This document shows positions 237-20,551 of a DNA stretch of 64,000 bases, one piece after another; position 1 is the stretch's first letter, and each line of letters opens with the position of its first letter. The translations under genes and the position numbers were made by a program. A model generated the notes under the pieces. The model was not told the origin of the DNA. It ran no database searches and was given only the letters and a program-made list of their open reading frames with translations. The DNA comes from Subtercola sp. PAMC28395. GTDB lineage: Bacteria; Actinomycetota; Actinomycetes; Actinomycetales; Microbacteriaceae. The DNA is taken from positions 1,984,001 to 2,048,000 of the forward strand of contig NZ_CP076547.1 of the NCBI RefSeq assembly GCF_018889995.1. The letters run 5' to 3'.

Positions 237-2600
<2,364 letters not shown>

Positions 2601-2628
2601 AGTCGGCGACTCTCCGTCGGGGTGGGCG

Positions 2629-3865: not shown

Positions 3866-4026
3866 GGGCGTGCACCTGTCGGAGATAGCTGGCTGGGGTG
3901 ATCCCAAGGGATGGGGTCAGTCACGTCCGGTATCCACTGCTGTTCGGCCACACACCGGGCCACGGCGGTGACGTTCAGTCGAGCGATTCGTCTGTCGATT
4001 CGTCTCTTGTTCTGGCTGCCACTCAT
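3862..4026 (-). CDS. 54-aa basic protein between mobilisation genes
   Basis: A short frame starts at ATG 4026, overlapping the stop of the coupling ATPase by four bases (ATGA), and ends by overlapping the next gene's ATG in the same way. The peptide is basic at the N-terminus (KRRIDRRIARLNV) and ends in a Trp/Pro-rich segment. The double four-base overlap is the main evidence that it is translated. No family is recognised. It may be an accessory to the coupling protein or only a coupling frame that carries ribosomes from one gene to the next. Confidence 0.55.
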   Translation of the reverse strand: MSGSQNKRRIDRRIARLNVTAVARCVAEQQWIPDVTDPIPWDHPSQLSPTGARP

Positions 4027-6161: not shown

Positions 6162-6351
6162 GCCCACCACCTTTCTGCCCGGCAGTGCCCTCGGCCGGGT
6201 TCTGCTGATTCTTATGAGGCATACGGTCCTGTTCGTCAAGATGCATTGCTAGCAACAACAACGTGCGCGCGAAAGCCTCCCGGTCGAGCTCCTTCGCCCA
6301 GACAGGAGTGAGGCGGTGTCGGCCCGAAGCGCGACTTACGTTCCGTTTCAT
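6145..6351 (-). CDS. 68-aa hypothetical protein upstream of the coupling ATPase
   Basis: ATG at 6351 follows AAAGGGGTG at good spacing, and the stop lies inside the start region of the coupling ATPase, as expected for a coupled operon gene. The peptide contains an amphipathic WAKELDREAFARTLLLLAMHL helix and a polar Gly/His-rich tail. No family was recognised. Its position before the coupling ATPase suggests an accessory or regulatory role in mobilisation. Confidence 0.6.
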   Translation of the reverse strand: MKRNVSRASGRHRLTPVWAKELDREAFARTLLLLAMHLDEQDRMPHKNQQNPAEGTAGQKGGGHDDHE

Positions 6352-6373
6352 TGGGCACCCCCTTTCTGCGTCG

Positions 6374-6574
6374 TCAGAGCCAGGTGTTCCGGCGTCGCCA
6401 CCACCACACGGTGACCCAGATCACGGCGATGACAACGGCGGCGATCGCGAGGATCCACCAGACCGCCTTCAGAAGCTCGATGGTGAGAACCAAGAGGATG
6501 ACGCCGCCGAAGATGAGGAGGCAGGTTTTCCAGAATCTCTCCGCGAGCGATCGCGGCCCGCTGTTGTCCGGCAT
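6374..6574 (-). CDS. 66-aa membrane protein
   Basis: ATG at 6574 is preceded by GAGGGGTG. The peptide has a short polar N-terminus with a basic-aromatic patch (AERFWKT), then two hydrophobic spans (about residues 18-35 and 40-58) rich in Ile, Val and Leu, and ends WWWRRRNTWL, an interfacial Trp cluster followed by positive charges. It should be a small inner-membrane protein of the mobilisation operon, perhaps supplying the membrane anchor that the coupling ATPase lacks; this last point is inference. Confidence 0.65.
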   Translation of the reverse strand: MPDNSGPRSLAERFWKTCLLIFGGVILLVLTIELLKAVWWILAIAAVVIAVIWVTVWWWRRRNTWL

Positions 6575-6586
6575 GCTTCACACCCC

Positions 6587-7234
6587 TCACGCCTGTGTCT
6601 CGTGTACCGTCGCCGGTGCGTGTGCGGGGATGTTGTCGGCGGGCACGGGGTAGCCCCATTTCGCGAGCGACACAGTCGCGTCGCATTCATTGCCCCAGAT
6701 ATCCCAGTGCTTGCTTGATGGAGCAGAGCGCCTTGCAAACAATTCCAGGAACGGCCCGTCTCCGCCGACCAGTCTTTCCGCGATCAGATGGGTTTCCTCG
6801 GGCTTACGACTGTGGGCTTGCAGGGCGTGCATGCCCCAGTTCGGTTGGCCTTTGAACGCGACCTTCGTCCCCTTGCCCCGCACCCCGAGCAGCAGCAGTT
6901 CGCCGGAGTTGCGGAAGGTGTTCCCCAGCATCAGGCGGGGTTTCGCCCAGAAGTAGAAGCTGGTGTACCGGAACCCCCAGGCCTCGAGAACCTTGATGCC
7001 CAGCGGCACGGTCGCAGTTGTGACCCAGAGGAAGCAGAACGAGTTCTCGGCCATGATTTCTTTCATGGCGTCGCCCATCCCGAGGATGCGTTCATCGGTC
7101 ATAAGTTCGTAATGGTTGGCAGCGCCGAGGTCGCCTTTCTGCTGCAGCGACCACGGTGGATCACACAGCGCGGCACGGAAGGTGCCGGGCAGCGGCGTTC
7201 TATCTGGGTGATTGTGGTTGGTGTGGATACTCAT
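6587..7234 (-). CDS. MT-A70 family adenine N6-methyltransferase
   Basis: The 215-aa protein has the catalytic DPPW motif at residues 25-28 (ALCDPPWSLQQKG), then FLWVTTATVP, a YTSFYFWAKP stretch, and a HSRKPEETHLIAERL block followed by FLELFARR. These are typical of phage- and plasmid-borne MT-A70 methyltransferases that make N6-methyladenine in DNA using S-adenosylmethionine. Length fits the bacterial subfamily. ATG at 7234 follows an AAAGGAGAACA ribosome site, nearly identical to that of the ArdA-like gene. No cognate nuclease adjoins it; the restriction operon has its own HsdM. Likely roles are protection of transferred DNA or epigenetic regulation, both inferred. Confidence 0.88.
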   Translation of the reverse strand: MSIHTNHNHPDRTPLPGTFRAALCDPPWSLQQKGDLGAANHYELMTDERILGMGDAMKEIMAENSFCFLWVTTATVPLGIKVLEAWGFRYTSFYFWAKPRLMLGNTFRNSGELLLLGVRGKGTKVAFKGQPNWGMHALQAHSRKPEETHLIAERLVGGDGPFLELFARRSAPSSKHWDIWGNECDATVSLAKWGYPVPADNIPAHAPATVHETQA

Positions 7235-7463
7235 ACGGTGTTCTCCTTTCGGGAGGTGAAGAAATTTGTTGGCTGGCCCATCGGCATGGACGGCCCGGGG
7301 CGGTGTCAGCGACTATTACGCACCCCGGCCGCTGTTTCGCGAAGATGCCGCAGGAGCACTCCTCGAGCCGATCGGACACCGCGGTGACCGAGGCAGGGCC
7401 TCACCGGGGCGTGCACCGAGAGGCGTTGTTGTCGAATACGCAACACGCCCCGCTTTGGGAGAG
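7235..7463. other. Gene-poor gap in the mobilisation operon
   Basis: No convincing coding frame is seen in this 229-bp stretch. Plus-strand frames here lack ribosome sites and family features. An 8-bp inverted repeat (GCCCCGCT at 7447-7454 and AGCGGGGC at 7469-7476) straddles the stop codon of the 95-aa membrane protein gene and may form an RNA stem that attenuates or protects the upstream message, since it has no T-tract. Confidence 0.4.
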
Positions 7464-7751
7464 CTACGAGCGGGGCTCGTCGTGGTGACCGGTAGTCAGG
7501 AACATCGCCCTCGTCAGTGCCTTGGATGCTTCGTCGCGGTCGGACGCAAGATCCTCCGCCAGCGACAAGATCGTCCGCCGCAACCGTTCTGACGTCGCAT
7601 CTAGTTCCGCCTCAATTCGTGCGCGGCGGCGCTCCCGCCAGGCCTCGTATTCCGCCCACAGCACCTCGATGACGAACCAGGTCAAAAAAGCTGCAACGAC
7701 CCCCAAGAGAATGATGCTGATTACTCCCGCGACCGCCTGAAGGACGTCCAT
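7464..7751 (-). CDS. Small membrane protein with cytoplasmic coiled coil
   Basis: The roughly 95-aa product has one N-terminal transmembrane helix (VISIILLGVVAAFLTWFVIE), then a charged helical stretch (EAWRERRRARIEAELDA) and a polar tail. The stop of the upstream gene and the ATG of this one share a base (TGATG at 7753-7749); a GTG three bases earlier is an alternative. Such bitopic proteins with a charged helix are common in actinobacterial mobilisable elements but have no assigned function. Confidence 0.65.
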   Translation of the reverse strand: MDVLQAVAGVISIILLGVVAAFLTWFVIEVLWAEYEAWRERRRARIEAELDATSERLRRTILSLAEDLASDRDEASKALTRAMFLTTGHHDEPRS

Positions 7752-8056
7752 CACAGGCCCCGACCGATGCGCTGACCGGCCCCGATCGCGTACCCGGCGA
7801 TGATCGCTTCATAGAACTGCGCACCCGCCGGGGCAACCTTCATCTGCGCTTCGGCCTGCAGCACGAGCGTTGTCACGTTCGTGAGTGCCTGCGATGCCAG
7901 GAACGCGTACGCCTGCTCACGCACCGCCGCGATCTCCGTGTTGGCCGCGAGTGTTTCCACTTCCCGTTTGGTTTGACGGGCGAGGCCGCCGTTGATCTTC
8001 TGACCCTGCTGGGTCGTGTGCCCGCCGAACAGCGGCACCACTTGGTTATTGGACAT
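7751..8056 (-). CDS. 101-aa hypothetical protein, first gene of the mobilisation operon
   Basis: ATG at 8056 follows GGAAGGA. The product is an Ala-rich helical protein (REVETLAANTEIAAVREQA, then AYAFLASQALTNVTTLVLQAEAQ) with a Gly-rich ending. It has no signal peptide or catalytic motif. It leads the long minus-strand operon and faces the divergent 323-aa gene across a palindrome at 8081-8108, so it marks the promoter side. No family is recognised; a structural or partition-like helper is possible but unsupported. Confidence 0.65.
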   Translation of the reverse strand: MSNNQVVPLFGGHTTQQGQKINGGLARQTKREVETLAANTEIAAVREQAYAFLASQALTNVTTLVLQAEAQMKVAPAGAQFYEAIIAGYAIGAGQRIGRGL

Positions 8057-8080
8057 GAGTTGGGTCCTTCCGGTTGAAGA

Positions 8081-8108
8081 GAAGTACCCCGGATTTCCGG
8101 GGTACTTC
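8081..8108. promoter_or_regulatory. Perfect 12-bp inverted repeat in the divergent promoter region
   Basis: Arms GAAGTACCCCGG (8081-8092) and CCGGGGTACTTC (8097-8108) are exact complements around a 4-base ATTT spacer. The site lies 25 bp before the start of the minus-strand operon and 80 bp before the plus-strand 323-aa gene. The position suits an operator read by a dimeric regulator controlling both directions, or a transcript hairpin. It has no T-tract on either side, which argues against a terminator. Confidence 0.6.
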
Positions 8109-8187
8109 GACCATAAGAACCAGGCCGCGGTGTGCTTGAAACTCGGAATAAACTTGGAAACACTATGCAAGGCACAGGGGTCAAGTC

Positions 8188-9159
8188 ATGAGGCTGGACG
8201 AGGACGACGTCGCGACCCTTCACCAGCAGTTGACCTGGTTGACGAAACGGGAGGGCTTCATTCAGCGCCGCCTCAGCCAGGTAGGGATCGTCGACGAAGT
8301 CCTCCGCGGCTCCCTGGAGGATAGTTTTGAACGCCTCCGGCACCGATTCGTCTCCGCCATCCACACTCTGCCGGTTGAGCAAGCCGACCTTCTACTCGAT
8401 GTCTTCGCGCTCACTCCCGAGACCGAGAACATCACCGAGTTGATGACGCGACGAGAGTTTCATGGTGCGAAGCTTGGCCGCGGCGTCGACACGGTGCGGA
8501 CACGAGAAGCCGCGGCACTAAAGGCACTCCATTCCCGGCTCGTAACCGGCCGCTACGCCCAGGCACCATTGGTCCTCGACGTACCCGAGATGCACGGCGG
8601 CCTCATCTACGAAGAAACCAGCACTCTCATCGTCGTTGAAGACCGGCGCTGGCAGGCCACCTACGAGCACTACACGTTCGTCAACATGGCGGGCGAGCTC
8701 GACTACGTCACCATCGGCAGGTCCTACCCCGGAACCGTGACACCCAGCAGCACAGGCGCATTCAAGGTCAACAGCCGCGACGTAGACGGCGCGGGATGGA
8801 ACGACCACTTCTGGCACCTCAACACTGACCGCACCGCAGTAGAGCCGATGCAAGACCAAGAACGGTTCGACTTGCGCTTTCGCATCACCCCGCCAGAGGA
8901 CGGTAGCGAGCCGACGCCAATGACGCTCGGAAGCCGGGCACTTCATCACAGGTCACTCCTGTTCACCCTCCGCATCGGATTCGTCGGCGAACACCCTTGC
9001 AGCATCTGGAAATTCGAGGGAGCCAGTCCCTACGCCCGTCCGCACACCGCCAACGAATACAACCGCGTCCAACTCGACACCAAGAGCACCGCCACGATGA
9101 CTCTTCGGGATGTCCACGGCGGACTGTTCAACGGCTTCGCCTGGAACTGGGACGCCTGA
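8188..9159 (+). CDS. 323-aa protein with possible sigma-region-4-like helix; unknown function
   Basis: ATG at 8188 directly follows the divergent promoter region. Residues about 1-120 are helical, and the segment GRGVDTVRTREAAALKALHS resembles the recognition part of sigma-70 region 4 (pattern S-x-x-x-V-R-x-x-E-x-x-A-L-x-x-L), preceded by a helix ending LLLDVFAL. The remaining 200 residues look beta-rich with many aromatic residues and match no family I recognise. Standing alone and divergent from the mobilisation operon, with a perfect palindrome between them, it is a candidate regulator of the island. This is inference from one motif; it might equally be an unrelated accessory protein. Confidence 0.6.
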   Translation: MRLDEDDVATLHQQLTWLTKREGFIQRRLSQVGIVDEVLRGSLEDSFERLRHRFVSAIHTLPVEQADLLLDVFALTPETENITELMTRREFHGAKLGRGVDTVRTREAAALKALHSRLVTGRYAQAPLVLDVPEMHGGLIYEETSTLIVVEDRRWQATYEHYTFVNMAGELDYVTIGRSYPGTVTPSSTGAFKVNSRDVDGAGWNDHFWHLNTDRTAVEPMQDQERFDLRFRITPPEDGSEPTPMTLGSRALHHRSLLFTLRIGFVGEHPCSIWKFEGASPYARPHTANEYNRVQLDTKSTATMTLRDVHGGLFNGFAWNWDA

Positions 9160-9368
9160 TCGCAGTTTCGAGGTCTTCTCGAAAACACCTGATCATGCGA
9201 TAATTAAGCCAGATTGCAGTCCCTGGTCGAAGCACCTCATGCTCCCGACTGCATCACCATCAAGGGCTCACGCCTGGCGCGGCGCCCTACGCGAGTCTGT
9301 GGGGACCGGTACCGTGAGATCTGAACTGAGCACAACTTAACCGCGCGCCGACGCGCAGGAGACGAGAT

Positions 9369-10937
9369 ATGGCACCGACCACCAAAGAAGGCCAGCGCGC
9401 TGAGCTTCACAAAACTATCTGGCGCATCGCGAATGACCTTCGTGGCTCGGTCGATGGATGGGACTTCAAGTCCTATGTCCTCGGCATGCTTTTCTACCGT
9501 TTTATCTCCGAAAACCTGACCTCATACATCAACGCGGGCGAGCATAAGGCCGGCGACCAGAACTTCAACTACTCGACCTTGCAGGATGCTCAGGCCGAGT
9601 TCGGCCGCAAGGAAACCGTCGAGGAAAAGGGCTTCTACATCCTCCCCTCCGAACTCTTCGACAATGTTCGGACTCACGGAGAACAAGACGCGAACCTCAA
9701 CGAGACACTCGCTCGGGTCTTCAAAAACATTGAAGGCTCCGCCGTCGGTAGCGACAGCGAAGACGACCTCAAGGGGCTGTTTGATGACCTCGACGTCAAC
9801 AGCTCGAAGCTCGGCAGTACCGTGGCCAAGCGCAACGAAAAGCTCGTCAAACTGCTGGACGCGATCGGCGACCTTCCACTCGGCAACTTCGACCAGAACA
9901 CCATCGATTTGTTCGGCGATGCGTATGAGTACCTGATGCAGATGTATGCCTCGAGCGCAGGCAAATCGGGTGGAGAGTACTACACGCCCCAAGAAGTCTC
10001 TGAACTCCTTGCCCGCATTACCGTGGTCGGCAAGACCCAGGTGAATAAGGTCTACGACCCCGCCGTCGGCTCCGGATCGCTACTGCTGAAGTTCGACAAA
10101 GTGCTCGGCAAGGGCAATGTGCGGCAGGGCTTCTACGGCCAGGAAATCAACCTGACCACCTACAACCTTGCCCGCATCAATATGTTCTTGCACGACGTGA
10201 ACTACGAGAAGTTCAACCTCGCCCACGGCGACACCCTCACCGATCCGGCGCACTGGGACGACGAACCGTTCGAGGCGATCGTGTCTAACCCGCCGTACTC
10301 GATCAAGTGGGACGGCGACGCGAACCCTCTGATGATCAACGACCCACGTTTCGCCCCTGCCGGTGTGCTCGCGCCAAAGTCGAAGGCCGACCTCGCCTTC
10401 ACGATGCACATTCTGTCGTGGCTGGCCGTCAACGGCACTGCCGCGATCGTCGAGTTCCCTGGCGTGCTGTACCGCGGGGGAGCGGAGCAGAAGATTCGCA
10501 AGTACCTCATCGACAACAACTACGTGGATGCCGTCATCCAGCTGCCACCCGACCTGTTCTTCGGTACCACAATCGCGACCTGCATCGTCGTGCTCAAGAA
10601 ATCCAAGAACGACAACGCGGTGCTATTCATCGACGCCTCGGCCGAGTTCACCCGTACCGGCAACAAGAACAAGCTTGCCGACGAGAACCAGCAGAAAATC
10701 CTCGACGCCTTCACCGTGCGCGAAGATGCCGAATACTTCGCCAAGCTCGTGTCAAACGAGAGCATTGCGGCCAACGGCTACAACATCGCAGTGTCGTCAT
10801 ACGTGGTGGCGGAAGACACCCGAGTGGCTGTTGACATCACCAGGTTGAATGCGGATATCACTCGCATCGTCGCCCGGCAAACGGAACTCCGCACCTCAAT
10901 CGACGAGATCGTCGCCGATCTGGAGGGCACCAGGTGA
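9369..10937 (+). CDS. hsdM: Type I restriction-modification system methyltransferase subunit
   Basis: The 522-aa HsdM has an N-terminal helical bundle domain (WRIANDLRGSVDGWDFKSYV, the HsdM_N motif). The N6-adenine methyltransferase core follows, with the S-adenosylmethionine motif YDPAVGSGSLLL near residue 231 and the catalytic NPPY near residue 307. It methylates adenine in the bipartite site read by HsdS. ATG at 9369 follows AGGAGACGAGAT. The stop overlaps the GTG of hsdS (GTGA), so translation is coupled. About 210 bp of non-coding DNA precede the gene and should hold the operon promoter, though no strong hexamers stood out. Confidence 0.95.
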   Translation: MAPTTKEGQRAELHKTIWRIANDLRGSVDGWDFKSYVLGMLFYRFISENLTSYINAGEHKAGDQNFNYSTLQDAQAEFGRKETVEEKGFYILPSELFDNVRTHGEQDANLNETLARVFKNIEGSAVGSDSEDDLKGLFDDLDVNSSKLGSTVAKRNEKLVKLLDAIGDLPLGNFDQNTIDLFGDAYEYLMQMYASSAGKSGGEYYTPQEVSELLARITVVGKTQVNKVYDPAVGSGSLLLKFDKVLGKGNVRQGFYGQEINLTTYNLARINMFLHDVNYEKFNLAHGDTLTDPAHWDDEPFEAIVSNPPYSIKWDGDANPLMINDPRFAPAGVLAPKSKADLAFTMHILSWLAVNGTAAIVEFPGVLYRGGAEQKIRKYLIDNNYVDAVIQLPPDLFFGTTIATCIVVLKKSKNDNAVLFIDASAEFTRTGNKNKLADENQQKILDAFTVREDAEYFAKLVSNESIAANGYNIAVSSYVVAEDTRVAVDITRLNADITRIVARQTELRTSIDEIVADLEGTR

Positions 10938-12142
10938 GCCGCCTTGAAGAGTTGATAGCGGAACTTGCGCCCGAGGGTGTGCCGCATTTGCTATTAGGGG
11001 AGGTCGCTGCGATCTTTGGCCGCAACGTCCAACCCTCCGCAATGGGGGACGAGACTGTAACTGTCTTCAGTCTTCCCTCGTTTGATCAGAGTAAGTCGCC
11101 AGAGAAGCTAGTAGGGATCGAAGTTGGCTCCGCTAAGACCCGACTTGGAGGCCCTTGCGTTCTTGTGGCAAAACTAAACCCACATATTCCACGTGTCTGG
11201 CCGCTTGAATTCATTCCACTGAACTCGTATTGCTCGCCGGAGTTCTATCCAATTGAGCCGGACCAGCGCGTCCTGGAACTGCGGTACATGTATCACTTCG
11301 TCCTGACGAAGATGAGCCTCCTCTCAGGAACAGTTACGGGCAGCACTAATAGTCACAAGAGGCTTCATCGAGAAGACTTTCTAAAACTCCGAATACCCGT
11401 GCCGCCTCTCGAGGTTCAGCGGGAAATCGTGAGAATCCTGGATCAGTTCACTCAGCTGGAAGCGGAGCTGGAAGCGGAGCTGGAAGCCCGCCGTCGCCAA
11501 TACGAGCACTACGCCGGTGCACTTCTCTCCAGCGATCAGCATGTCCCCCGAGCGAGGTTCGGCGACGTGGCACGGATCGTTCGAGGTGCGTCCCCTCGCC
11601 CTATTCAGAAATTCATTACCGAGAGTCCTGACGGTGTTCCTTGGATCAAGATTGGAGATGTCCCTGCGCGCGGAAAGTACATTACGCAGACCGGACAACG
11701 TGTCACACCGGAAGGTGCCGCGAAGTCGCGTCGCGTCCAGCCAGGTGATTTTGTGCTCTCCAACTCAATGAGCTTCGGCAGACCGTACATTTCGAAGATT
11801 GATGGCTATATTCATGACGGTTGGCTTGCGATAAGCGAATTCGAAGATTCGTTCATTTCTGACTACTTGTATTACCTGCTGCGCTCAGCACCTATACAAG
11901 AAGAATTCGCGCGTCGCGCAGGCGCGGGCACGGTCAAGAACCTGAACGCTGAGATCGTGCGCTCGGTTGAGGTTCCGGTGCCGACGAAGGATGCGCAAGC
12001 ACGAGCGGTTGAACTGCTCGATAAGTTCGATGCTCTCGTGAACGACATCAGCATTGGTTTGCCAGCTGAGCTCGCTGCTCGCCGTAAGCAGTATGAGTAC
12101 TACCGTGACAAGCTGCTCACTTTCGAGGAGGCTACGGCATGA
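10934..12142 (+). CDS. hsdS: Type I restriction-modification specificity subunit
   Basis: The 402-aa protein has two target-recognition domains, each followed by a conserved helical spacer: RIPVPPLEVQREIVRILDQF after the first and VEVPVPTKDAQARAVELLDKF after the second. Each spacer ends in a RRRQYEHY/RRKQYEYY motif. The two recognition domains read the two halves of the target; their specificity cannot be inferred. Base composition dips in the first domain (about 11000-11400), typical of exchangeable recognition cassettes. The central spacer holds three copies of a four-residue ELEA unit. GTG 10934 overlaps the hsdM stop, and the stop overlaps the ATG of hsdR. Confidence 0.95.
   Translation: MSRLEELIAELAPEGVPHLLLGEVAAIFGRNVQPSAMGDETVTVFSLPSFDQSKSPEKLVGIEVGSAKTRLGGPCVLVAKLNPHIPRVWPLEFIPLNSYCSPEFYPIEPDQRVLELRYMYHFVLTKMSLLSGTVTGSTNSHKRLHREDFLKLRIPVPPLEVQREIVRILDQFTQLEAELEAELEARRRQYEHYAGALLSSDQHVPRARFGDVARIVRGASPRPIQKFITESPDGVPWIKIGDVPARGKYITQTGQRVTPEGAAKSRRVQPGDFVLSNSMSFGRPYISKIDGYIHDGWLAISEFEDSFISDYLYYLLRSAPIQEEFARRAGAGTVKNLNAEIVRSVEVPVPTKDAQARAVELLDKFDALVNDISIGLPAELAARRKQYEYYRDKLLTFEEATA
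11455..11490 (+). repeat. 12-bp tandem repeat in the hsdS spacer
   Basis: Three copies of GCTGGAAGCGGA occur in tandem (11455-11466, 11467-11478 and a third diverging in its last bases to 11490). Each encodes four residues, giving the ELEAELEAELEA run in the central helix. In EcoR124I and EcoDXXI a similar four-residue repeat sets the distance between the half-sites, and copy-number change alters specificity. Confidence 0.85.
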
Positions 12143-15100
12143 GCGACGTGACTTTCCGCAAATATGATCCGATCGCTGTGTCGAACGAGAGCACGGTTGT
12201 CGCTGAGTATGTGCCCGATGCGAAGGCTGAGGCGGCGTATCAGTCGGAGGCTAATCTTGAGCGCGAACTGATTCGTCTGCTTCAGTCGCAGGCGTACGAA
12301 TACCTTCCGATCACTTCGGAAGCGCAGATTGTGGCGAACCTCCGCACTCAGCTCGAGGCGCTGAACGGGCTTACGTTCTCGGATGCTGAGTGGGCGCAGT
12401 TTTTCGCCGAGCGAGTCGCTGGGGCAAACGATGGCATTGTCGAGAAAACCGTGCGCATCCAAGAGGACCACGTTCAGCTACTCAAGCGCGATGACGGTTC
12501 GACGAAGAACATCCTGCTGATCGATAAGCAGAACATTCACAACAACCGTTTGCAGGTCATCAATCAGTACACGATTGACCAGGGCGACGGAAGTGAAGTA
12601 CAGCGTGGTGCTGCCCGCTCGAACCGCTACGACGTGACGGTGCTGGTGAACGGTCTGCCGATGGTGCACATCGAGTTGAAGCGTCGCGGTGTCGACATTC
12701 GCGAGGCGTTCAACCAGATCGACCGCTACCAACGCGACAGCTTCTGGGCGGGTTCTGGCCTGTTCGAGTATGTGCAGCTTTTCGTGATCAGCAACGGCAC
12801 GCTGACGAAGTACTACTCCAACACCACCCGTCGTCAGCATCTCAGTGAGGCGGCTGGGTCGAAGCGTGTGCGCAAGACGTCGAACTCGTTCGAGTTCACG
12901 TCGTGGTGGGCTGACGCGCAGAATAAGCCGATCACGGATCTCGCCGCGTTCGCGAAGACGTTCTTCGCCAAGCATTCGCTGCTCAACATTCTGACGAAGT
13001 ACTGCGTGCTCACGGCCGACAAGATGTTGCTGGTGATGCGTCCGTATCAGATCGTCGGTACCGAGCGGATTCTGTCGAAGATCGACATCTCCACCAATTA
13101 CAGGCAGCTCGGCAGTGTCGCCGCGGGCGGGTACGTGTGGCATACGACCGGGTCGGGTAAGACACTGACGTCGTTCAAGGCCGCCCAGCTGGCGTCGAAG
13201 CTTCCGAGCGTTGACAAGGTGCTGTTCGTTGTCGACCGTAAGGACCTCGACTACCAGACGATGCGGGAGTACGACCGGTTCGAGAAGGGTGCGGCGAACT
13301 CGAACACCTCCACCGCGGTACTGAAGAAGCAACTTGAAGACCCGGGTGCACGGATCATCATCACGACGATCCAGAAGCTGTCGACGTTCATTGGCGCGAA
13401 CAAGGGTCACGCGATTTACGACGGTCATGTTGTGATCATCTTCGACGAGTGTCATCGTTCGCAGTTCGGTGACATGCACACCGCGATCACGAAGGCGTTC
13501 AAGCGGTACAACCTGTTCGGCTTCACCGGCACACCGATCTTCGCGGCCAACTCTGGCAGCGGTGGCAACCCGCAGTTGAAGACCACCGAGCAGGCTTTCG
13601 GGCAGAAGCTGCACACGTACACGATCGTGGATGCGATCAGCGATAAGAACGTGCTGCCCTTCCGTATCGACTATGTCAACACGGTCAAGGTTGGCAACGT
13701 CGTCGACAAGCAGGTCTCGTCGATCGACACCGAGAAGGCGCTGCTCGCGCCGGAGCGGATCAGCCAGATCGTGGCGTACACGTTGGAGCACTTCGATCAG
13801 AAGACCAAGCGTGCCCAGCACTACACTCTCGGTGACAAGCGGGTGCGCGGGTTCAACGCGCTGTTCGCGACCGCGTCCATCGAGGCCGCCCGGGTGTACT
13901 ACAACCACTTCCAGCTCCTGCAGGAACAGCTTCCTTCTGACCGCAAGCTGAAGGTCGGGCTGATCTATTCCTACGGAGCGAATGATGCCGTTGAAGACGG
14001 GGCGCTGGACGAGGAAGGCTTCGATACCGGGGCGCTGAGCATGGATGCTCGTTCGTTTCTGGAAGACGCGATCCAGGACTATAACGGCATGTTCGGCACA
14101 AGCTACGATACGTCGGCCGACAAGTTCCAGAACTATTACAAAGACCTCTCGCTGCGGCTAAAAACCAGGGACATCGACCTGGTCATCGTGGTAAACATGT
14201 TCCTCACCGGCTTCGACGCGACCACGCTTAGTACGCTCTTCGTCGACAAAAACCTGCGCGCACACGGGCTGGTCCAAGCGTATTCACGAACGAACCGCAT
14301 CCTGAACTCGGTCAAGACGTACGGCAACATCGTGAGTTTCCGTGACCTCGAAGACGCCACGAACGATGCCATTGCCTTGTTCGGCAACAAGAACGCTCAG
14401 GGCGTTGTGCTGCTCAAGCCATACGGCGAGTACTACAACGACTACGCCGAGAAGGTCGCGGATCTTCTTGCTGCCTTCCCCCTCGGACAGCCGATTATCG
14501 GAGAGGCCGCGCAGAAGGAGTTCATCCAACTGCTCGGTGCGATCCTGCGCCTGCAGAACATTTTGACCTCGTTCGATGAGTTCACCGGCAACGAGATTCT
14601 GTCTGACCGTCAGGCGCAGGACTATCGGAGTATCTATCTCGACATGTACGCCGAGTTCCGCAAGGGTACGGATAGCGATAAGGAACAGATCAACGACGAC
14701 ATCGTCTTTGAGATTGAGTTGATCAAGCAGGTCGAGATCAACGTCGACTACATCCTCATGCTCGTGCAGAAGTACCGCGACGAACGCGGCGACGGCGACG
14801 ACAAGGAGATTCGTGCCGAGATTTCTCGCGCCGTCGATTCCAGTCCGAGCCTGCGCAACAAGAAAGACCTCATCGAAGACTTCGTCGACAACATCTCGGT
14901 CGACGGCGAGATCGACCAGGAATGGCGAACCTTCATCGCAGCAAAGCGCGAAGCCGAACTCGAGACAATCATCACCGACGAGAACCTCCGCCCCGACGAG
15001 ACCCGCGTCTTCGTCGAGACCGCGTTCCGCGATGGTCAGATCCGCACCAGCGGAACCGCGATCACGAAGGTGCTTCCGCCAGTCTCACGCTTCTCCGCAG

Positions 15101-15198
15101 ACGGCGGCCACGGTGAGAAGAAGCAGCGCGTGATCCAGAAGCTCGGAGCCTTCTTTGAACGGTTCTTAGGACTCAGTTCGACGGGAGGCCGAGAATAA
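12139..15198 (+). CDS. hsdR: Type I restriction enzyme endonuclease/translocase subunit
   Basis: The 1019-aa HsdR has an N-terminal PD-(D/E)xK nuclease region (PMVHIELKRRGVDIREAFNQI, ELK near residue 178). A superfamily 2 translocase follows with motif I TGSGKTLTSF (about 335), motif II IIFDECHRSQ (about 436), motif III GFTGTPIF and the later motifs (MFLTGFDATTL, AYSRTNRI). It cleaves unmodified DNA after translocation by the HsdM2S core. All expected motifs are present, so the gene looks intact. It starts in an ATGA overlap with hsdS and ends at TAA sharing one base with the ATG of the OLD-like gene. Confidence 0.95.
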   Translation: MSDVTFRKYDPIAVSNESTVVAEYVPDAKAEAAYQSEANLERELIRLLQSQAYEYLPITSEAQIVANLRTQLEALNGLTFSDAEWAQFFAERVAGANDGIVEKTVRIQEDHVQLLKRDDGSTKNILLIDKQNIHNNRLQVINQYTIDQGDGSEVQRGAARSNRYDVTVLVNGLPMVHIELKRRGVDIREAFNQIDRYQRDSFWAGSGLFEYVQLFVISNGTLTKYYSNTTRRQHLSEAAGSKRVRKTSNSFEFTSWWADAQNKPITDLAAFAKTFFAKHSLLNILTKYCVLTADKMLLVMRPYQIVGTERILSKIDISTNYRQLGSVAAGGYVWHTTGSGKTLTSFKAAQLASKLPSVDKVLFVVDRKDLDYQTMREYDRFEKGAANSNTSTAVLKKQLEDPGARIIITTIQKLSTFIGANKGHAIYDGHVVIIFDECHRSQFGDMHTAITKAFKRYNLFGFTGTPIFAANSGSGGNPQLKTTEQAFGQKLHTYTIVDAISDKNVLPFRIDYVNTVKVGNVVDKQVSSIDTEKALLAPERISQIVAYTLEHFDQKTKRAQHYTLGDKRVRGFNALFATASIEAARVYYNHFQLLQEQLPSDRKLKVGLIYSYGANDAVEDGALDEEGFDTGALSMDARSFLEDAIQDYNGMFGTSYDTSADKFQNYYKDLSLRLKTRDIDLVIVVNMFLTGFDATTLSTLFVDKNLRAHGLVQAYSRTNRILNSVKTYGNIVSFRDLEDATNDAIALFGNKNAQGVVLLKPYGEYYNDYAEKVADLLAAFPLGQPIIGEAAQKEFIQLLGAILRLQNILTSFDEFTGNEILSDRQAQDYRSIYLDMYAEFRKGTDSDKEQINDDIVFEIELIKQVEINVDYILMLVQKYRDERGDGDDKEIRAEISRAVDSSPSLRNKKDLIEDFVDNISVDGEIDQEWRTFIAAKREAELETIITDENLRPDETRVFVETAFRDGQIRTSGTAITKVLPPVSRFSADGGHGEKKQRVIQKLGAFFERFLGLSSTGGRE

Positions 15199-17165
15199 TG
15201 AGACTCATCTCCGCCCACATCCGTGGTTATGGCCGCATCGTCGATTCCAAAATCAACCTCGATGCCAAGGTCATCGCGATCGTTGGTCCGAACGAAGCCG
15301 GGAAGACGACGCTCCTGAGGGCGCTCGGACATGTCGATAGTAACGAGGCCGTGCCGGTGCCTCAGCGCTCACGCGCTGCGGAGGTGTCTGATCAGACCCG
15401 TGTCACCACTTTCGACTACGTCATCGAGGACGCCGACAAGGACGCACTCGCCGATCTTGACCTACTCAGGCCGCCTACTCGTGCCTCAATCGCACGATCG
15501 GCTGCCGGGGGCAATCTCATCGTCGACCTATCCCCTCGGCCGGTGAAGTCAGTTCGGCCGCTCCAGGAAGCGGCCGAACGATTGAAGGCGTCACTCATAG
15601 ACAAGTCTCTCGACGAGTGGATCGATCTCAACACGACATACGCCGACCCGGAGTCGGACGCACCGCGCGACTATCGGAAAGAACTTCAGGCGCTTCTCGA
15701 AGCGATCGATGCCGCCATCGCTGAACCAGGGAGCGCTCTCACTGAGGAGATGATCGAGACTACGCGGTCGCTACAAACGGCAACGGTCAACGACGAAGCG
15801 GACTCGGAACGGCTCCGCGCTGCATACGGCTCGATCATCGTCTGGGCGGAGCGAGAAGATCCCGCTGCGGAAGCACGCGATCGGCTCTGGCAGCGCACGC
15901 CTGACTTCATTATGTTCGATGAGGCGGACCGCTCGATTCAGTCTGCTTATACGTTCGACGATGCACTCGTTAACGATCCGCCAGATGCGCTCGAGAATCT
16001 GGCCGGTACTGCATCGCTCGATCTCACCCAGCTTCTTCATTTTGTGCGGACGGGAGACATTGCCCGTCGACGATCGGCAATCGTGCAGGCCAACAGTCGC
16101 ATGGACACAATTTTTGACGGGGCATGGAAGCAATCGAATCTGTCTGTTCACTTCGAACTCGACGGTGACCAACTGCGTATCGAGTTGATGGAGGATGGTG
16201 ACAACGTCACGGTCTTCGATGAGCGAAGCGCGGGCCTACGCATGTTCGTCGCATTGATTGCATTTCTGAAGGTGCATGGTTCTGATCGCTTGCCCATCCT
16301 GCTCATCGACGAGGCGGAGAATCACCTTCATATCGACGCGCAGGCCGACTTGGTGAATATGTTCGTCACGCAGGAGCATGCGGTCAAAGTGATCTACACG
16401 ACACACAGTCCGGCCTGTCTGCCACCTGACCTTGGTACTGGAATTCGCGTGGTCGTACCGCGTGAGGATAATTTTCAAGTCAGCGACGTCAGGAACAGTT
16501 TTTGGCAGAGCGGGGCGGGTTTCTCGCCGCTCATGCTTGCGATGGGAGCGGCGGCAGCAGCCTTCACCCCAGCACGTTTCGTCGTGTTGGCTGAGGGCGC
16601 GACCGAAATGATCCTTCTGCCGACATTGATACGAGCTGCGACCGGCGAGAATGATTTGCCTTACCAAGTGGCACCAGGGCTGTCGGAAGTGCCGAATGAC
16701 TTCCTGCCGAAGCTTGATCTCGAAGCTGCTCATGTTGCATACATGGTCGACGGCGACGATGGTGGAGCGAAGTTGAAGGCGGCGCTCACGGACGCTGGTG
16801 TTCCAGAGAGTCTTATCGCGGATCTCGGTGTGCCGGAGATCGAGAACCTCCTTGCCCCGGAAGACTATCGCGCAGCTATCTCCGCACTGCTGCCGGAATG
16901 CAATCCGGGCATCGCCGTGAGCGACCTGCCCGAGGTGCCGCCTATTCCCGTCGTAGATGGCGGCTCAGTTGCGAAGTGGATGTATGGCTGGATTAACGAC
17001 GAGGGCTTGAAGGCTCCGTCCAAGGTTGCGGTTGCCAACTGGCTGGTCGAGAACCAGCGCTCTACGCCCAGTGCTGCAGGTGTCGCGGTGCTCACCTCTC
17101 TACACGCGAAGTTGCTTGGTGCCCTCCGGATATCCAAAATTCAAGAGACAGTCGACAAAAAGTGA
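15198..17165 (+). CDS. OLD-family ATPase with TOPRIM nuclease domain
   Basis: The 655-aa protein has an ABC-type ATPase with Walker A GPNEAGKTTLL (about residues 30-40), a signature-like ERSAGLRMFVALI, and Walker B ILLIDEAENHLHIDAQ (about 369), followed by IYTTHSPACLP. A C-terminal TOPRIM region has VLAEGATEMILLP (acidic residue about 466) and MVDGDDGG (about 518). OLD nucleases act in phage defence alone or with a partner such as GajB, but no UvrD-like helicase partner is present here. The one-base overlap with hsdR and direct adjacency to the next ATPase gene indicate one operon. It may act independently or respond to restriction products; that is inference. Confidence 0.88.
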   Translation: MRLISAHIRGYGRIVDSKINLDAKVIAIVGPNEAGKTTLLRALGHVDSNEAVPVPQRSRAAEVSDQTRVTTFDYVIEDADKDALADLDLLRPPTRASIARSAAGGNLIVDLSPRPVKSVRPLQEAAERLKASLIDKSLDEWIDLNTTYADPESDAPRDYRKELQALLEAIDAAIAEPGSALTEEMIETTRSLQTATVNDEADSERLRAAYGSIIVWAEREDPAAEARDRLWQRTPDFIMFDEADRSIQSAYTFDDALVNDPPDALENLAGTASLDLTQLLHFVRTGDIARRRSAIVQANSRMDTIFDGAWKQSNLSVHFELDGDQLRIELMEDGDNVTVFDERSAGLRMFVALIAFLKVHGSDRLPILLIDEAENHLHIDAQADLVNMFVTQEHAVKVIYTTHSPACLPPDLGTGIRVVVPREDNFQVSDVRNSFWQSGAGFSPLMLAMGAAAAAFTPARFVVLAEGATEMILLPTLIRAATGENDLPYQVAPGLSEVPNDFLPKLDLEAAHVAYMVDGDDGGAKLKAALTDAGVPESLIADLGVPEIENLLAPEDYRAAISALLPECNPGIAVSDLPEVPPIPVVDGGSVAKWMYGWINDEGLKAPSKVAVANWLVENQRSTPSAAGVAVLTSLHAKLLGALRISKIQETVDKK

Positions 17166-19799
17166 GTGACGAAACACGACATGAGCGATGAAGTGACTAT
17201 GACCACCGTCGACCCCGACGGCGAATCCGAATTCGCGGAGCCAGAGGTTGCTGAGCTTCTCGACCCGAGGGCACTGCTCGCTGACTGGGCGAATGCCAAG
17301 GATGAGTGGGTGCGCCTACTCGTAGCTGAGGTTATTGCGACCGCGCGTCCTGTTGGCGAGTCAACGATCGAGAAGGCGTATCAGCTATTTCGCCAGGAAA
17401 AGGCCCTCGACAAGCGAGAACTGCCAGTCGTCCCTCAGCTCAACGTCGAAGCCCGTCAGGACGAGTCAGCGCCGCCGCTGACCCTGACTCGGCTCTCCGA
17501 GGTTCACGGCATCAATGCGCTGGTGTCTGGGTCGGTGATCGAGCCTCACGAGGGCTTGACGATTTTGTACGGCGAGAACGGCACCGGCAAGACCGGTTAC
17601 TCTCGCGTCTTCAAGGCGCTCGCGAACAGCCGCACTGCCGACACGATCCTCGGAGATATCGAAGCGGACGCCGTCGAGGTGCAGAGCGCAAAGCTCGAGT
17701 TCACACTTGGCGACCAAGCGCAGACCCTTGCCTGGGCCGGTGACCGAGGTGTTTCACCATTCACGAGAATGTCGATCTTCGATAGCCCCGCTGTCACGAC
17801 GCACGTCGATGAAGACCTTGACTACGTTTACGTTCCGGCCGCGTTGGCGTTGTTCAAACACGTCACCGCAGCGATCCAGGCGGTCACAGGTCAGGTTGAC
17901 TCAGCTATTACCAATATCGGCTCCGGGAGCCCAAGTCTGCTCTCACGGTTCCAACGCGGATCCACCGTCTATCCGCTCATCGAGACGCTCGGCGCGTCCT
18001 CCGCTCTTGTTGATCTCAAATCGAAGGTCAAGGCGGGTGAAACTGTCAACACGGAACTCGACTCGCTGACCCAAGCGGTAGCGGCTTTACGCGCCAATAC
18101 GATGGGCACACAGATTACGGCGCTCAAGAGCCAGCAGCGTGTCTTGACCCAGGCCGTGGCTGCAGCAGACGCCCTGTCCGCCTTCGACCAGACGGCCTAC
18201 AACGCAGCTCTTGCCAAGCGGACACAACTCGCAACTGATTACGAGACCTTTCGAAGCGAACTCTTCGCCGTTGCTGATCTGCCCGCTGACCCCGACGACA
18301 CATGGAACGACTTCATTGAGGGAGGCGAAGCCTATCGTCAGCACCTTGTCGATCTTGGAGTACACGATGCGGATCGGTGCCTTTACTGTCGCCAGCCCTT
18401 GCTCGACCCCGCGCGAGATCTTCTCACGCGCTACTCGACCTACCTAGAAGACAAGATTTCGGAGGACATCCGCACAACCGACGGTGCGCTGACCGCTTTC
18501 AGGCATCAGATTGCCAGTATCCAAAGCAATGAGATGGCCGCGTTCATCGAGGAGTACAAAGACTCCGACGAAGCCAACCGGCCAACGTACTTCGCACAGG
18601 TCGAGACGATTGAAGCCACACGGAGCGCGGTCGCCGCTGCCCTCACCGATAGTGAGTCAGCCGACATCAAGATCGTAGATCTGGTCAACTCGGCGAAGGG
18701 CGCGGTCGCCAGCGCCCTGAATGCTGCTGGCGCGAGCATCACCGATCTGGAGAACCAGCAACAGAATCGGGTGAAGGTGCTCGATGAGAAGCAGACAGAG
18801 CTGCTGGAGTTCAAGGACGCCGTCGAACTCGGTAAGTCATGGCCGCTGATCGAAACTCAGGTCAAGAGTGCCAAGGAAGCGGACCGTCTGCGAACTCTCA
18901 AGAAACCGATGCCGCAAATGGCCAGAGCGGTCACGGAACTCTCCAAGACCGCCAGCAATCAACTGATCAACCTGAGCTTCGACGCACTGTTCATTGAGGA
19001 GTGCGAGGCGCTCCGGGCACCACCGATGAAGCTGCAGTTCGTCGGCCGCGACGGCAAGGCCCAGCGTCGGAAAGTTATGACTGGTAAGCACAAACCGTCG
19101 AAGGTGCTATCTGAAGGTGAACAGAAAGTACTGGCCCTTGCTGACTTCTTGGCTGAGGCGCGGCTTGCGGGCATTACTGCGCCGGTGATCTTCGATGATC
19201 CGGTATCCAGCCTCGACCACCGTCGCGTCAACGAGGTGGCTCAGCGGATTGCTCGATTGGCCGACGATATCCAGGTCATCGTTTTCACCCACGACATCCT
19301 TTTCGCCACGACGCTCCTCAATCTTTCGGAGAAGTCGAAGCGCTGCTCCCTGTTCCAAATCACGGACGAAAGTGGCAAAGGACAGGTCACCCGAGCAACT
19401 GGTTTGCGCACGGACTCGCTAAGCGCAATCCGAGGGCGAATTAATGCTGCGATTCAAAATGCGAAAGCCCAGGAGGGTGAAGTACGAGATGCGCTTGTGC
19501 GGATGGCATACAGCCATATTCGGGCGTGGTGCGAAGTTTTCACCGAAGAAGAGCTGCTGAAGGGTGTCACCAAGCGCTACCGCGCGAACGTTCAGATGAC
19601 CACCCTCCCGAGCATCGACGGCAGCAAACTCGACGAGATTGGTCCTAAGGTAACCGAGATATTCGAGGTTGCCTGTCGGTACATTGATGGCCATTCCCAA
19701 CCGCTTGTGACGCTGGGCGTCAGCCCTACCCTCACCGGCCTGGAGCAGCACTGGACCGAGCTTCAAAACCTCAAGATGGTCAACGACGGCAAGTCATGA
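17166..19799 (+). CDS. Zinc-hook ABC ATPase, RloC/PrrC-like candidate anticodon nuclease
   Basis: The 877-aa protein has a split ABC ATPase head: Walker A YGENGTGKTGYS near residue 136, a VLSEGEQKVLALADFLAEA signature, and Walker B VIFDDPVSSLDHRR near 674, then QVIVFTHDILF. Between them are long coiled coils with a CLYC zinc-hook motif near 405. The C-terminal domain after the head contains R779-x4-H784 and R786-x3-E790, then a conserved GHSQP His near 843. PrrC and RloC combine the same ATPase style with a C-terminal tRNA anticodon nuclease whose triad is Arg, Glu and His, with Arg and Glu four residues apart as here. The gene follows the OLD-like stop directly (GTG 17166; ATG 17181 possible). 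A guard role for the restriction enzyme, as in EcoprrI, is inferred. Confidence 0.8.
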   Translation: MTKHDMSDEVTMTTVDPDGESEFAEPEVAELLDPRALLADWANAKDEWVRLLVAEVIATARPVGESTIEKAYQLFRQEKALDKRELPVVPQLNVEARQDESAPPLTLTRLSEVHGINALVSGSVIEPHEGLTILYGENGTGKTGYSRVFKALANSRTADTILGDIEADAVEVQSAKLEFTLGDQAQTLAWAGDRGVSPFTRMSIFDSPAVTTHVDEDLDYVYVPAALALFKHVTAAIQAVTGQVDSAITNIGSGSPSLLSRFQRGSTVYPLIETLGASSALVDLKSKVKAGETVNTELDSLTQAVAALRANTMGTQITALKSQQRVLTQAVAAADALSAFDQTAYNAALAKRTQLATDYETFRSELFAVADLPADPDDTWNDFIEGGEAYRQHLVDLGVHDADRCLYCRQPLLDPARDLLTRYSTYLEDKISEDIRTTDGALTAFRHQIASIQSNEMAAFIEEYKDSDEANRPTYFAQVETIEATRSAVAAALTDSESADIKIVDLVNSAKGAVASALNAAGASITDLENQQQNRVKVLDEKQTELLEFKDAVELGKSWPLIETQVKSAKEADRLRTLKKPMPQMARAVTELSKTASNQLINLSFDALFIEECEALRAPPMKLQFVGRDGKAQRRKVMTGKHKPSKVLSEGEQKVLALADFLAEARLAGITAPVIFDDPVSSLDHRRVNEVAQRIARLADDIQVIVFTHDILFATTLLNLSEKSKRCSLFQITDESGKGQVTRATGLRTDSLSAIRGRINAAIQNAKAQEGEVRDALVRMAYSHIRAWCEVFTEEELLKGVTKRYRANVQMTTLPSIDGSKLDEIGPKVTEIFEVACRYIDGHSQPLVTLGVSPTLTGLEQHWTELQNLKMVNDGKS

Positions 19800-20246
19800 C
19801 ACGGAGCAATCCCGCGCTTGAGCGTCCACCTTGTTGCCATGAGGGTCGCGCATGACTATGCCTCGCTCTCTCAGTCGACTGAGAACCGTGGTCGCGTTGA
19901 CTCCGAGGCGATCGCCCACTCTGGCAAGTGAATACCCGTCCTCGTATAGGCGAACCATCTCGTCGATCTGTTCAGGCGTCGGCGAAGTGCGTCTGAGGGC
20001 AACGCCTTGCCGCTTCAGAACAGCACTGATCGTCACCCTATGACAGTTGTACTCGGCCGCAAGTTCATAGACTGTCTTGCCCAATTTGTATGCCGCGATA
20101 ACCTGGCCGACCTTTTCGTCCGAGAATCGTGGTTGTGCCTTGCGTTGACGACCGCCGGTCGCCTGCGTTCGTGTAACGGCGGGCTTGGTGAGAAGGTGTC
20201 GGCGGACCTTCCGCAGTTCGTTTGCATGGGAGGAGAACAGTCCCAC
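19794..20246 (-). CDS. Helix-turn-helix DNA-binding protein (recombinase-like HTH repeats)
   Basis: The C-terminal two thirds carry two consecutive Hin-type helix-turn-helix units: [20 protein letters not shown] with [17 protein letters not shown], then [19 protein letters not shown] with [16 protein letters not shown]. No catalytic serine-recombinase domain is present. The frame is open up to an ATG at 20327, but that would place the terminator hairpin (20255-20285) inside the gene and has no ribosome site. GTG at 20246 (or TTG 20249) is preferred because AGGTGAG lies about 9 bp upstream. It converges with the defence operon with a 6-bp overlap. It may regulate the island, or be the remnant of a second recombinase. 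Confidence 0.65.
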
Positions 20247-20254
20247 CAATCGAA

Positions 20255-20285
20255 GTGGCTCACCTGGCGGTGAGTCACTTTTTTT
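20255..20285 (+). terminator. Intrinsic terminator at the right end of the island
   Basis: Arms GTGGCTCACC (20255-20264) and GGTGAGTCAC (20269-20278, one G-T wobble) enclose a TGGC loop and are followed by seven T residues and GTTT. It reads on the plus strand, so it would stop transcripts leaving the defence operon before the chromosomal gene at 20552. Confidence 0.85.
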
Positions 20286-20551
20286 GTTTCTCTGCCTCAG
20301 CCGCGGGCACGCGTATATACGTGACATCCCGATTGCACGGCATCAGTCTGTGGCCGCACTCCTCGGGAGGCGCAACTGTTGCGAAACTTGCAACAACTGC
20401 CGAAAAGGGGAAATCTTCTCAGGTCGACCACTACAACCCTGATGTAGTTACCAGTTCATCGTGCTTGCAGTCGTCTGACCGCCGGACAGGGTTGCGCCGG
20501 CTCCGACGCTCGGGAGGTGCGTGCGGTCGCGCGCCTGCGATACTGACGGGT

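Follow-up and report, generated by a model that had tools for sequence, protein, structure and literature searches.

The genome of Subtercola sp. PAMC28395 (3.21 Mb, one contig) contains, within the 64,000-nucleotide stretch analysed here (1984001-2048000; hereafter the window), a run of five genes which encode the three subunits of a type I restriction-modification (RM) system, an OLD-type ATPase and a zinc-hook ATPase resembling RloC. We consider it probable that this run is a type IC-like RM operon extended at its 3′ end by the rloC-like gene and by an exchangeable second anti-phage module, which in this strain is the OLD gene. Support for this reading comes from the compact one-direction run, from the abrupt limits of homology where hsdR ends and rloC starts, and from related loci that keep hsdM, hsdR and rloC but carry the Dodola genes instead of OLD, or share OLD and rloC only. 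It is further supported by the recurrence of the OLD-rloC pairing in another genus with a very different rloC, by RM genes upstream of rloC in part of the relatives, and by the features of the last gene, which agree with the definition of RloC and have the RloC of strain HTCC2150 as a relative.

The operon
Open reading frame (ORF) calling found the five genes at the positions, in the single direction and with the tight packing that an earlier sequence-only reading of this DNA had described. The features of the operon are:

9369..10937, plus strand: hsdM, type I DNA adenine methyltransferase, 522 aa (TIGR00497, PF02384, PF12161)
10934..12142, plus strand: hsdS, specificity subunit, 402 aa (PF01420, PADLOC Specificity_I)
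12139..15198, plus strand: hsdR, restriction/translocase subunit of the EcoR124 (type IC-like) family, 1019 aa (TIGR00348, PF12008, PF04313, PF18766)
15188..17180, plus strand: putative exchange slot between hsdR and rloC (blastn homology boundaries)
15198..17165, plus strand: OLD-type gene, 655 aa (PF13175/PF13304, AAA_15/AAA_21, and motifs)
17166..19799, plus strand: rloC-like gene, 877 aa, GTG start, for a Rad50-like ABC ATPase with a coiled coil, a zinc hook and a putative C-terminal anticodon-nuclease domain (PF13166 (AAA_13), PADLOC PDC-S06)
18378..18389, plus strand: codons of the CLYC zinc hook, C405 and C408 (conserved cysteines)
19383..19796, plus strand: C-terminal domain, residues 740-877, predicted helical bundle with R786, E790 and H843 (model and triad conservation)
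19521..19523, plus strand: R786 codon, putative catalytic triad (conservation)
19533..19535, plus strand: E790 codon, putative catalytic triad (conservation)
19692..19694, plus strand: H843 codon, putative catalytic triad (conservation; also R838-x4-H843)

In gene order, the junctions are a 4-bp overlap, a second 4-bp overlap, a 1-bp overlap and a 0-bp junction, and the five genes would be transcribed jointly. The promoter scan gave 3 weak sites against 3.6 expected. Terminator-like sites numbered 15 against 10.5 expected; the strongest (20252-20281, plus strand) lies 3′ of rloC, and weaker ones are intragenic. The rloC gene may alternatively start at the ATG at 17181 (MSDEV), leaving a 15-nt gap after OLD; this would be the natural start, as homology to the Dodola-type loci resumes there.

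Judged by its gene content, hsdMSR is a type I RM system, and an IC-like one. HsdM matches TIGR00497 with 724 bits (cut-off 243; E=1e-217) and carries an NPPY motif at residue 307, while HsdS is recognized by PADLOC Specificity_I (E=1e-92). HsdR scores 544 bits with TIGR00348 (cut-off 285) and 252 with the EcoR124_C family PF12008 (cut-off 23); its motifs include GSGKT at 338 and DECH at 436. One further N6_Mtase match was found elsewhere in the genome, in two pieces at 396 kb within a single 890-aa frame.

A putative exchange slot between hsdR and rloC
Genome contigs were searched with a profile made from the RloC-like alignment, and the best 80 loci (at least 80 exist; L numbers denote loci) were compared with the window. 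In two of them, L005 (Microbacterium) and L012 (Leucobacter chromiireducens), HsdM is 88.5-89%, HsdR 89-90.6% and RloC 88-89% identical to the window proteins; HsdS is only 35-37% identical, and its target-recognition parts differ. The blastn homology to both loci stops at window position 15188, 10 bp before the end of hsdR, and resumes at 17180, beside the ATG at 17181. Between these boundaries L005 and L012 have dolA and dolB, where the window has OLD; in L012, PADLOC identifies DolA with E=5e-74 and DolB with E=3e-132. In all three loci the slot gene overlaps hsdR by 1 bp (TAATG for OLD, TGATG for dolA). Conversely, L006 (Cryobacterium melibiosiphilum) is homologous to the window only over 15187-19915, which corresponds to OLD, rloC and little more (OLD 89%, rloC 88%).

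In L010, L011 and L013, too, the Dodola genes precede rloC, but here they follow a type III res gene. A 4-bp overlap of dolB with rloC is seen in 5/5 Dodola loci, of which 2 are linked to type I and 3 to type III RM. Taken together, the hsdR-rloC junction looks like an exchange slot, and the five-gene set seems to be one variant within a modular design. The proposal that hsdMSR, OLD and the zinc-hook ATPase form a conserved set did not survive the neighbourhood search: OLD directly precedes rloC in 1 of the best 80 loci (23 of which have less than 6 kb of upstream sequence), L006, which has no adjacent hsdMSR, and Dodola takes the place of OLD in L005 and L012. On these neighbourhoods, exact five-gene conservation was rejected as a general rule. 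Further copies may exist in metagenomes, as judged from list entries alone: protein entries on contigs of equal size suggest an hsdR-OLD-rloC order (8706: HsdR P0260, OLD P0129, RloC P0010), an hsdR-OLD order (26982: P0251, P0123; 11374: P0263, P0127) and an OLD-rloC order (7458: OLD P0125, RloC P0003).

The L012 operon (1151-12613) has the order hsdM-hsdS-prrC-hsdR-dolA-dolB-rloC. Its prrC (355 aa, PADLOC E=8e-92) lies between hsdS and hsdR, where the E. coli plasmid NZ_CP116245.1 (L125; hsdM-hsdS-anticodon nuclease-hsdR), used as reference for the EcoprrI-like layout, has its annotated anticodon nuclease. In L079 (2281-12592), a metagenome-assembled genome of Cycloclasticus, the order is hsdM-hsdS-RhuM/Fic (PADLOC PDC-S23)-hsdR-rloC, so that RhuM-Fic occupies the position of prrC; this layout is near to the RM loci with RloC/PrrC-like and Doc/RhuM genes described in 2013.

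The RloC-like protein
The last gene matches PADLOC PDC-S06 (E=2e-120). Its product contains a Walker A motif (GENGTGKT, 136), the CLYC hook (405), SEGEQ (649), DDPVSSLD (677) and FTHD (707), followed by R786-x3-E790-x52-H843. RloC has been defined by a length of 658-897 aa, a CxxC zinc hook splitting a Rad50-like ATPase and the triad Arg-X3-Glu-X36-52-His (Davidov and Kaufmann 2008, PMC2610378). The window protein agrees with this definition in size and split ABC ATPase, in its CxxC hook and in the spacing of its triad, which upholds, at the level of motifs, the likeness to RloC that had been noticed from the sequence.

The ATPase motifs, hook and triad of the earlier description are all present, and the hook and triad are deeply conserved. 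Among 79 relatives, down to ~19% identity, both hook cysteines are found in 79/79, the Glu in 79/79, the His in 78/79 (one gap) and the Arg in 75/79. With the window included (80 sequences; L093, L094, L098 and L099 were added, the short or broken RloC of L032, L047, L050, L051 and L066 as well as L001-L004 were omitted), the spacing Arg-x3-Glu-x48-52-His holds in 75/80. Some sequences are doubles at 98% identity (L022, L034 and L038 with L021; L094 with L093; L099 with L031, which are one locus); after their collapse the spacing holds in 72/75, with Arg in 73/75, Glu in 75/75, His in 74/75 and Cys in 75/75. Alignments A3 and A4 hold 86 and 64 of the available sequences, and in the alignment of the C-terminal domain (64 sequences) E790 and H843 are the sole invariant columns. 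R838, which would form a HEPN-like R-x4-H with H843, is present in 39 of the 47 sequences whose identity is at least 35% (that of the window counted) and in 5 of the 33 less similar ones.

The full-length AlphaFold2 model (mean pLDDT 82.7) has Rad50/SMC heads as its best Foldseek matches and shows helices on both sides of the CLYC hook. The C-terminal domain was modelled as a helical bundle (pLDDT 88.7, pTM 0.84). Among the relatives is the RloC of strain HTCC2150 (L080), whose gene is followed at 1.2 kb by ArdC and preceded by type III mod/res; the published description links this RloC to ardC and notes that one of two ArdC-linked RloCs is also associated with a type III system (PMC2610378). 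A search of plasmids with the RloC-like protein gave three matches, all below 60% identity.

The OLD-type protein
The 655-aa protein preceding RloC has the ABC ATPase motifs GPNEAGKT (30), DE (371-372) and TTHS (401), followed by the TOPRIM-like motifs EGATE (466) and DGDDGG (518). Among 34 aligned sequences, E466, D518 and D520 are found in 34/34 and E470 in 32/34 (window included). The arrangement of an N-terminal ABC ATPase and a C-terminal TOPRIM with acidic residues is that of an OLD protein, the TOPRIM being assigned by motif alone. Among proteins of solved structure, OLD 6p74, PtuA, AriA and GajA come closest in sequence, all of them weakly, and PADLOC likewise gives weak AriA, GajA and Old matches. 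The AriA models cover only the ATPase part (best E=9e-20), and no AriAB is found among the 25 of 94 matches listed. OLD thus resembles Gabija GajA and retron PtuA in its ABC ATPase and TOPRIM-like motifs; it differs from both systems in that neither a UvrD-type GajB nor a reverse transcriptase stands beside it. It stands between hsdR and the rloC-like gene, and an assignment to Gabija was rejected.

The OLD clade was sought, at E <=1e-60 or 1e-100, in overlapping sets of genomes from the order (396), the phylum (396), the class (394) and the genus (57), and was found in 15 genomes, Subtercola sp. PAMC28395 counted. Partners were sought with single-sequence probes. An RloC-like gene directly follows OLD in 4 of the 15, namely Subtercola and L093, L094 and L124, which belong to one other genus; in L093, RloC is 26% and OLD 46% identical to the window protein. 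RM genes lie directly upstream of OLD in 3 of the 15: Subtercola, G792 (L122) and G1146 (L117). In L122 (685-9959), hsdM- and hsdR-like genes surround an unassigned 419-aa gene, and a 157-aa gene separates them from OLD; in L117 the upstream frame of 958 aa is weakly type III-like. No plasmid gave an OLD match at 1e-40, and viral contigs gave nine distant OLD-like matches.

Several side observations concern the partners of OLD. The genome of L122 belongs to the same phylum and another class, and a 156-aa gene precedes OLD in L119 as the 157-aa gene does in L122. In L092 (6718-12292, minus strand), the gene next after an OLD homologue encodes a 1027-aa SMC-like ATPase, which PADLOC matches to Ppl (E=1e-30) and which is possibly a further partner of OLD.

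Distribution and linkage to RM genes
Linkage of rloC to RM genes was counted in 57 of the 80 loci, those with at least 6 kb upstream (23 with shorter flanks were omitted; L047, L051 and L066 were kept, in the distant group); L021, L022 and L038 are one neighbourhood counted thrice. Each RM probe was a single sequence, and RM families unlike the probes may have escaped detection, which makes the RM counts lower bounds. An RM gene on the same strand and at most 9 kb upstream of RloC was found in 17/57 loci, 5 of type I (L005, L006, L012, L068, L079) and 12 of type III; type III is therefore commoner than type I among the partners that the probes detected. The slot or partner genes in this count were Dodola in 5 loci, OLD in 1 and PrrC in 1. 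Outside the 80, L098 has a distant hsdMSR, then a 124-aa gene and RloC, and in L134 and L136 no RM partner was detected; nor was one in L135, which is the same locus as L029.

An order that recurs is SNF2-type helicase, type III mod, type III res, rloC, with dolAB before rloC in L011 and L013. It is seen in L011 (where the helicase is DrmD-like), L013, L026, L043, L058, L080 and L084, mostly from Actinobacteria; L080 belongs to the Rhodobacteraceae.

Island setting
The remaining features of the window that surround the operon are:

237-3053, minus strand: large serine recombinase, upstream of the operon
3053-3907, minus strand: Replic_Relax protein, upstream of the operon
4026-6239, minus strand: ATPase with weak TraD/TraG-type matches, upstream of the operon
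6590-7234, minus strand: MT-A70 adenine methyltransferase gene, separate from the hsd genes on the same island
8188..9159, plus strand: 323-aa ORF, no family assigned, 209 bp upstream of hsdM

Given the recombinase, Replic_Relax and TraD/TraG-like genes, the mobile island assumed in the sequence-only reading is plausible. The GC content is 57-59% at 8-20 kb of the window, compared with 61-63% before and 63-69% after. The 323-aa protein matched no Pfam, NCBIfam or PADLOC family. It recurs upstream of hsdM in L005 (82% identical) and L012 (84% over 314 aa), with a similar gap, and a partial match lies at the end of L039 (150 aa, 59%); it is possibly a regulator.

ARAGORN places a tRNA-Ala(ggc) at 709-784 (plus strand) within the minus-strand serine-recombinase ORF, which could reflect an over-long ORF, a false call or the mark of an integration site. 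Convergent with rloC is a gene for a 177-aa protein with a resolvase/transposase-type helix-turn-helix (HTH) at 19794-20327 (minus strand), into which the DNA homology to L005 and L012 extends. The corresponding gene cluster of L005 and L012 (c6) also occurs 3′ of rloC, again on the minus strand, in L015, L018, L041 and L051.

Discussion
The data described above suggest how the operon may act. As a first layer, HsdMSR would cut unmodified incoming DNA. The OLD ATPase/TOPRIM protein would form an independent second layer, probably as an infection-triggered nuclease. The RloC-like protein would use its Rad50-like ATPase and zinc hook to sense DNA ends and, as a last resort, its C-terminal domain would cleave the tRNA anticodon loop, halting translation; breaks caused by the phage, by HsdR or by OLD would supply the trigger. 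Such a layered defence had been put forward from the sequence. The part of it that stands is the presence of RM, OLD and RloC-like genes in one run; the idea itself is not new, since RM with RloC-like and Doc genes and RM with PrrC-like and RhuM genes were proposed as a three-level defense in 2013 (Anantharaman et al., PMC3710099).

As to the trigger, we lean towards DNA breaks over silencing by the restriction enzyme of the PrrC type. An internal switch that senses breaks fits better than binding to HsdMSR, given that the rloC clade occurs with type I, with type III or with no detected RM partner. In Acinetobacter baylyi the ATPase switch of RloC responds to DNA breaks and is active also in R-M mutants, while PrrC is said always to accompany type Ic loci, whose restriction enzyme silences it; the same source leaves regulation of RloC by RM possible in other situations, e.g., phage infection (PMC3874168). 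The model of the EcoprrI type, in which HsdMSR would silence the RloC-like protein, and perhaps OLD, until an anti-restriction protein of a phage frees it, with OLD possibly a PARIS-like sensor, seems rather unlikely to us, and the PrrC-style guarding of the type I enzyme assumed at the outset is thus disfavoured. In its favour are the type IC-like linkage, as for prrC, the naming of PrrC and PARIS as RM guardians (PMC12707154), the weak AriA matches of the OLD ATPase, and a full-length profile alignment to PrrC which passes the ATPase and brings R786-x3-E790 opposite the Arg-x3-Glu of PrrC. This has to be set against an rloC clade with no fixed partner, accompanied by type III RM or by no RM that the probes detected, against the A. 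baylyi findings, against L012, where a PrrC stands at its usual position in addition to the RloC-like gene, and against the zinc hook, which is described for RloC and not for PrrC (PMC2610378).

A number of observations speak against joint action of the extended operon, or against a tRNase as its last gene. No RM partner was detected by the probes in 40/57 relatives, so that joint action with RM is not obligatory; hsdR lies 7 kb off in L006, with opposite-strand genes between, and hsdMS more than 6 kb off in L068; and the RloC clade is rare (3/299 family genomes and 4/297 order genomes under the thresholds applied, Subtercola in both). At the C-terminus, the aligned Arg is missing in L034, L084, L093 and L094. 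Fold matches of this domain are non-significant, with HEPN among the best and a vinculin tail tied with a HEPN protein, and hhalign of the domain alone gave a probability of 0.3% for PrrC and 0.1% for two short RloC-type proteins (L129, L130; PDLC04886), which are not the assayed enzyme. This last test is weak: three control segments scored similarly (0.1-0.3%), and PrrC against L129/L130 itself reached only 4.7%. The best match in a profile search of the PDB had an E of only 0.11, and a comparison with viral structures found no fold match at E <=0.001. The comparison of C-terminal folds that had been suggested thus yields a HEPN-like helical bundle, and no significant match to the domains of PrrC or of the short RloC type.

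The linkage data would also be compatible with hitchhiking in a defence island, in which OLD and the RloC-like gene are stand-alone systems that share a transcription unit merely through the build-up of such genes on mobile islands and have no functional coupling; we regard this as a lesser but serious possibility. Besides the relatives and L134-L136 with no detected partner, 12/15 OLD-clade genomes show no adjacent RM (in one of them the contig, L120, is 3.9 kb long and too short for a partner call), the OLD-rloC pair lies away from hsdMSR in L006 and L093, and the island recombinase and transfer-type genes are nearby. On the other hand, precise ORF-to-ORF junctions are kept across the swaps, including the dolB-rloC overlap; OLD pairs again with a very different rloC; and the window, L005 and L012 have an identical hsdR-slot-rloC order. 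That the last gene is instead a Rad50-like ATPase of DNA repair or DNA sensing, whose C-terminal bundle has another role (e.g., protein binding), appears unlikely. Its best PDB sequence matches are Rad50 heads, and the lack of a significant C-terminal match to PrrC or the short RloC type agrees with such a role, as does the Arg missing from four sequences, whereas the invariance of E790 and H843, the triad spacing and the relationship to the documented RloC of HTCC2150 oppose it.

The association of PrrC with type I loci is a long-studied one, and the present operon resembles EcoprrI in combining EcoR124/IC-type hsd genes with a linked gene for an ABC-ATPase and putative anticodon nuclease. 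It differs from it in that the window gene is 877 aa long, has a zinc hook and extra N-terminal helices, and is placed after hsdR and OLD; among the RloC-like loci probed, prrC lies between hsdS and hsdR in L012 only. Identity with PrrC (341-416 aa, no zinc hook, between hsdS and hsdR) was rejected, the last gene carrying CLYC and following OLD. Within RloC, with which it shares the size range, the hooked Rad50-like ATPase, the triad and a relative linked to type III RM and ArdC, the window protein belongs to a long subfamily (~860 aa) with ~100 residues before Walker A, and its C-terminal domain has no significant match to the short-family L129 and L130. RloC was named from restriction-linked genes; in the published set, RM linkage was rare (8/73) (PMC2610378). 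Isolated OLD genes have been termed poorly understood (PMC13261556), and an OLD family ATPase is mentioned among the genes of Pgl operons holding HEPN genes (PMC3710099). Dodola is described as a stand-alone two-gene system of DolA (DUF6414) and DolB, a ClpB-like AAA protein (PMC11514479), whose mechanism is listed as unknown (PMC12322248); here the pair fills the position between a restriction gene and rloC in L005, L010, L011, L012 and L013.

The loci described in 2013 share with the present one an RM operon, an ABC-HEPN protein and a third toxin; as far as the consulted part of PMC3710099 describes them, the difference is that the third module here is OLD (Dodola in relatives), swapped at a precise position between hsdR and rloC. 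A literature search, to which subscription journals and most preprints were outside scope, found neither OLD or Dodola between hsdR and rloC nor an operon with PrrC, Dodola and RloC. Layered loci of RM, RloC and a third toxin were proposed in 2013, and for the OLD/Dodola slot no description was found.

The near-identical hsdM, hsdR and rloC genes with either OLD or Dodola between them constitute a natural module swap. It makes testable whether the tRNase cooperates with the slot module, which type of trigger it uses and why OLD and Dodola travel along. Similarly, the L012 operon places PrrC and an RloC-like protein around one restriction enzyme, so that two kinds of trigger can be compared in one system. 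More tentatively, actinobacterial RM operons could possess a 3′ docking site for whole anti-phage cassettes, between hsdR (or type III res) and rloC, with the RloC-like protein as constant terminal executioner, DNA ends from the restriction enzyme or the slot nuclease as common signal, and PrrC entering at a second slot, between hsdS and hsdR; this we regard as possible rather than probable. If it were true, one end-sensing tRNase would serve any upstream cutter or sensor.

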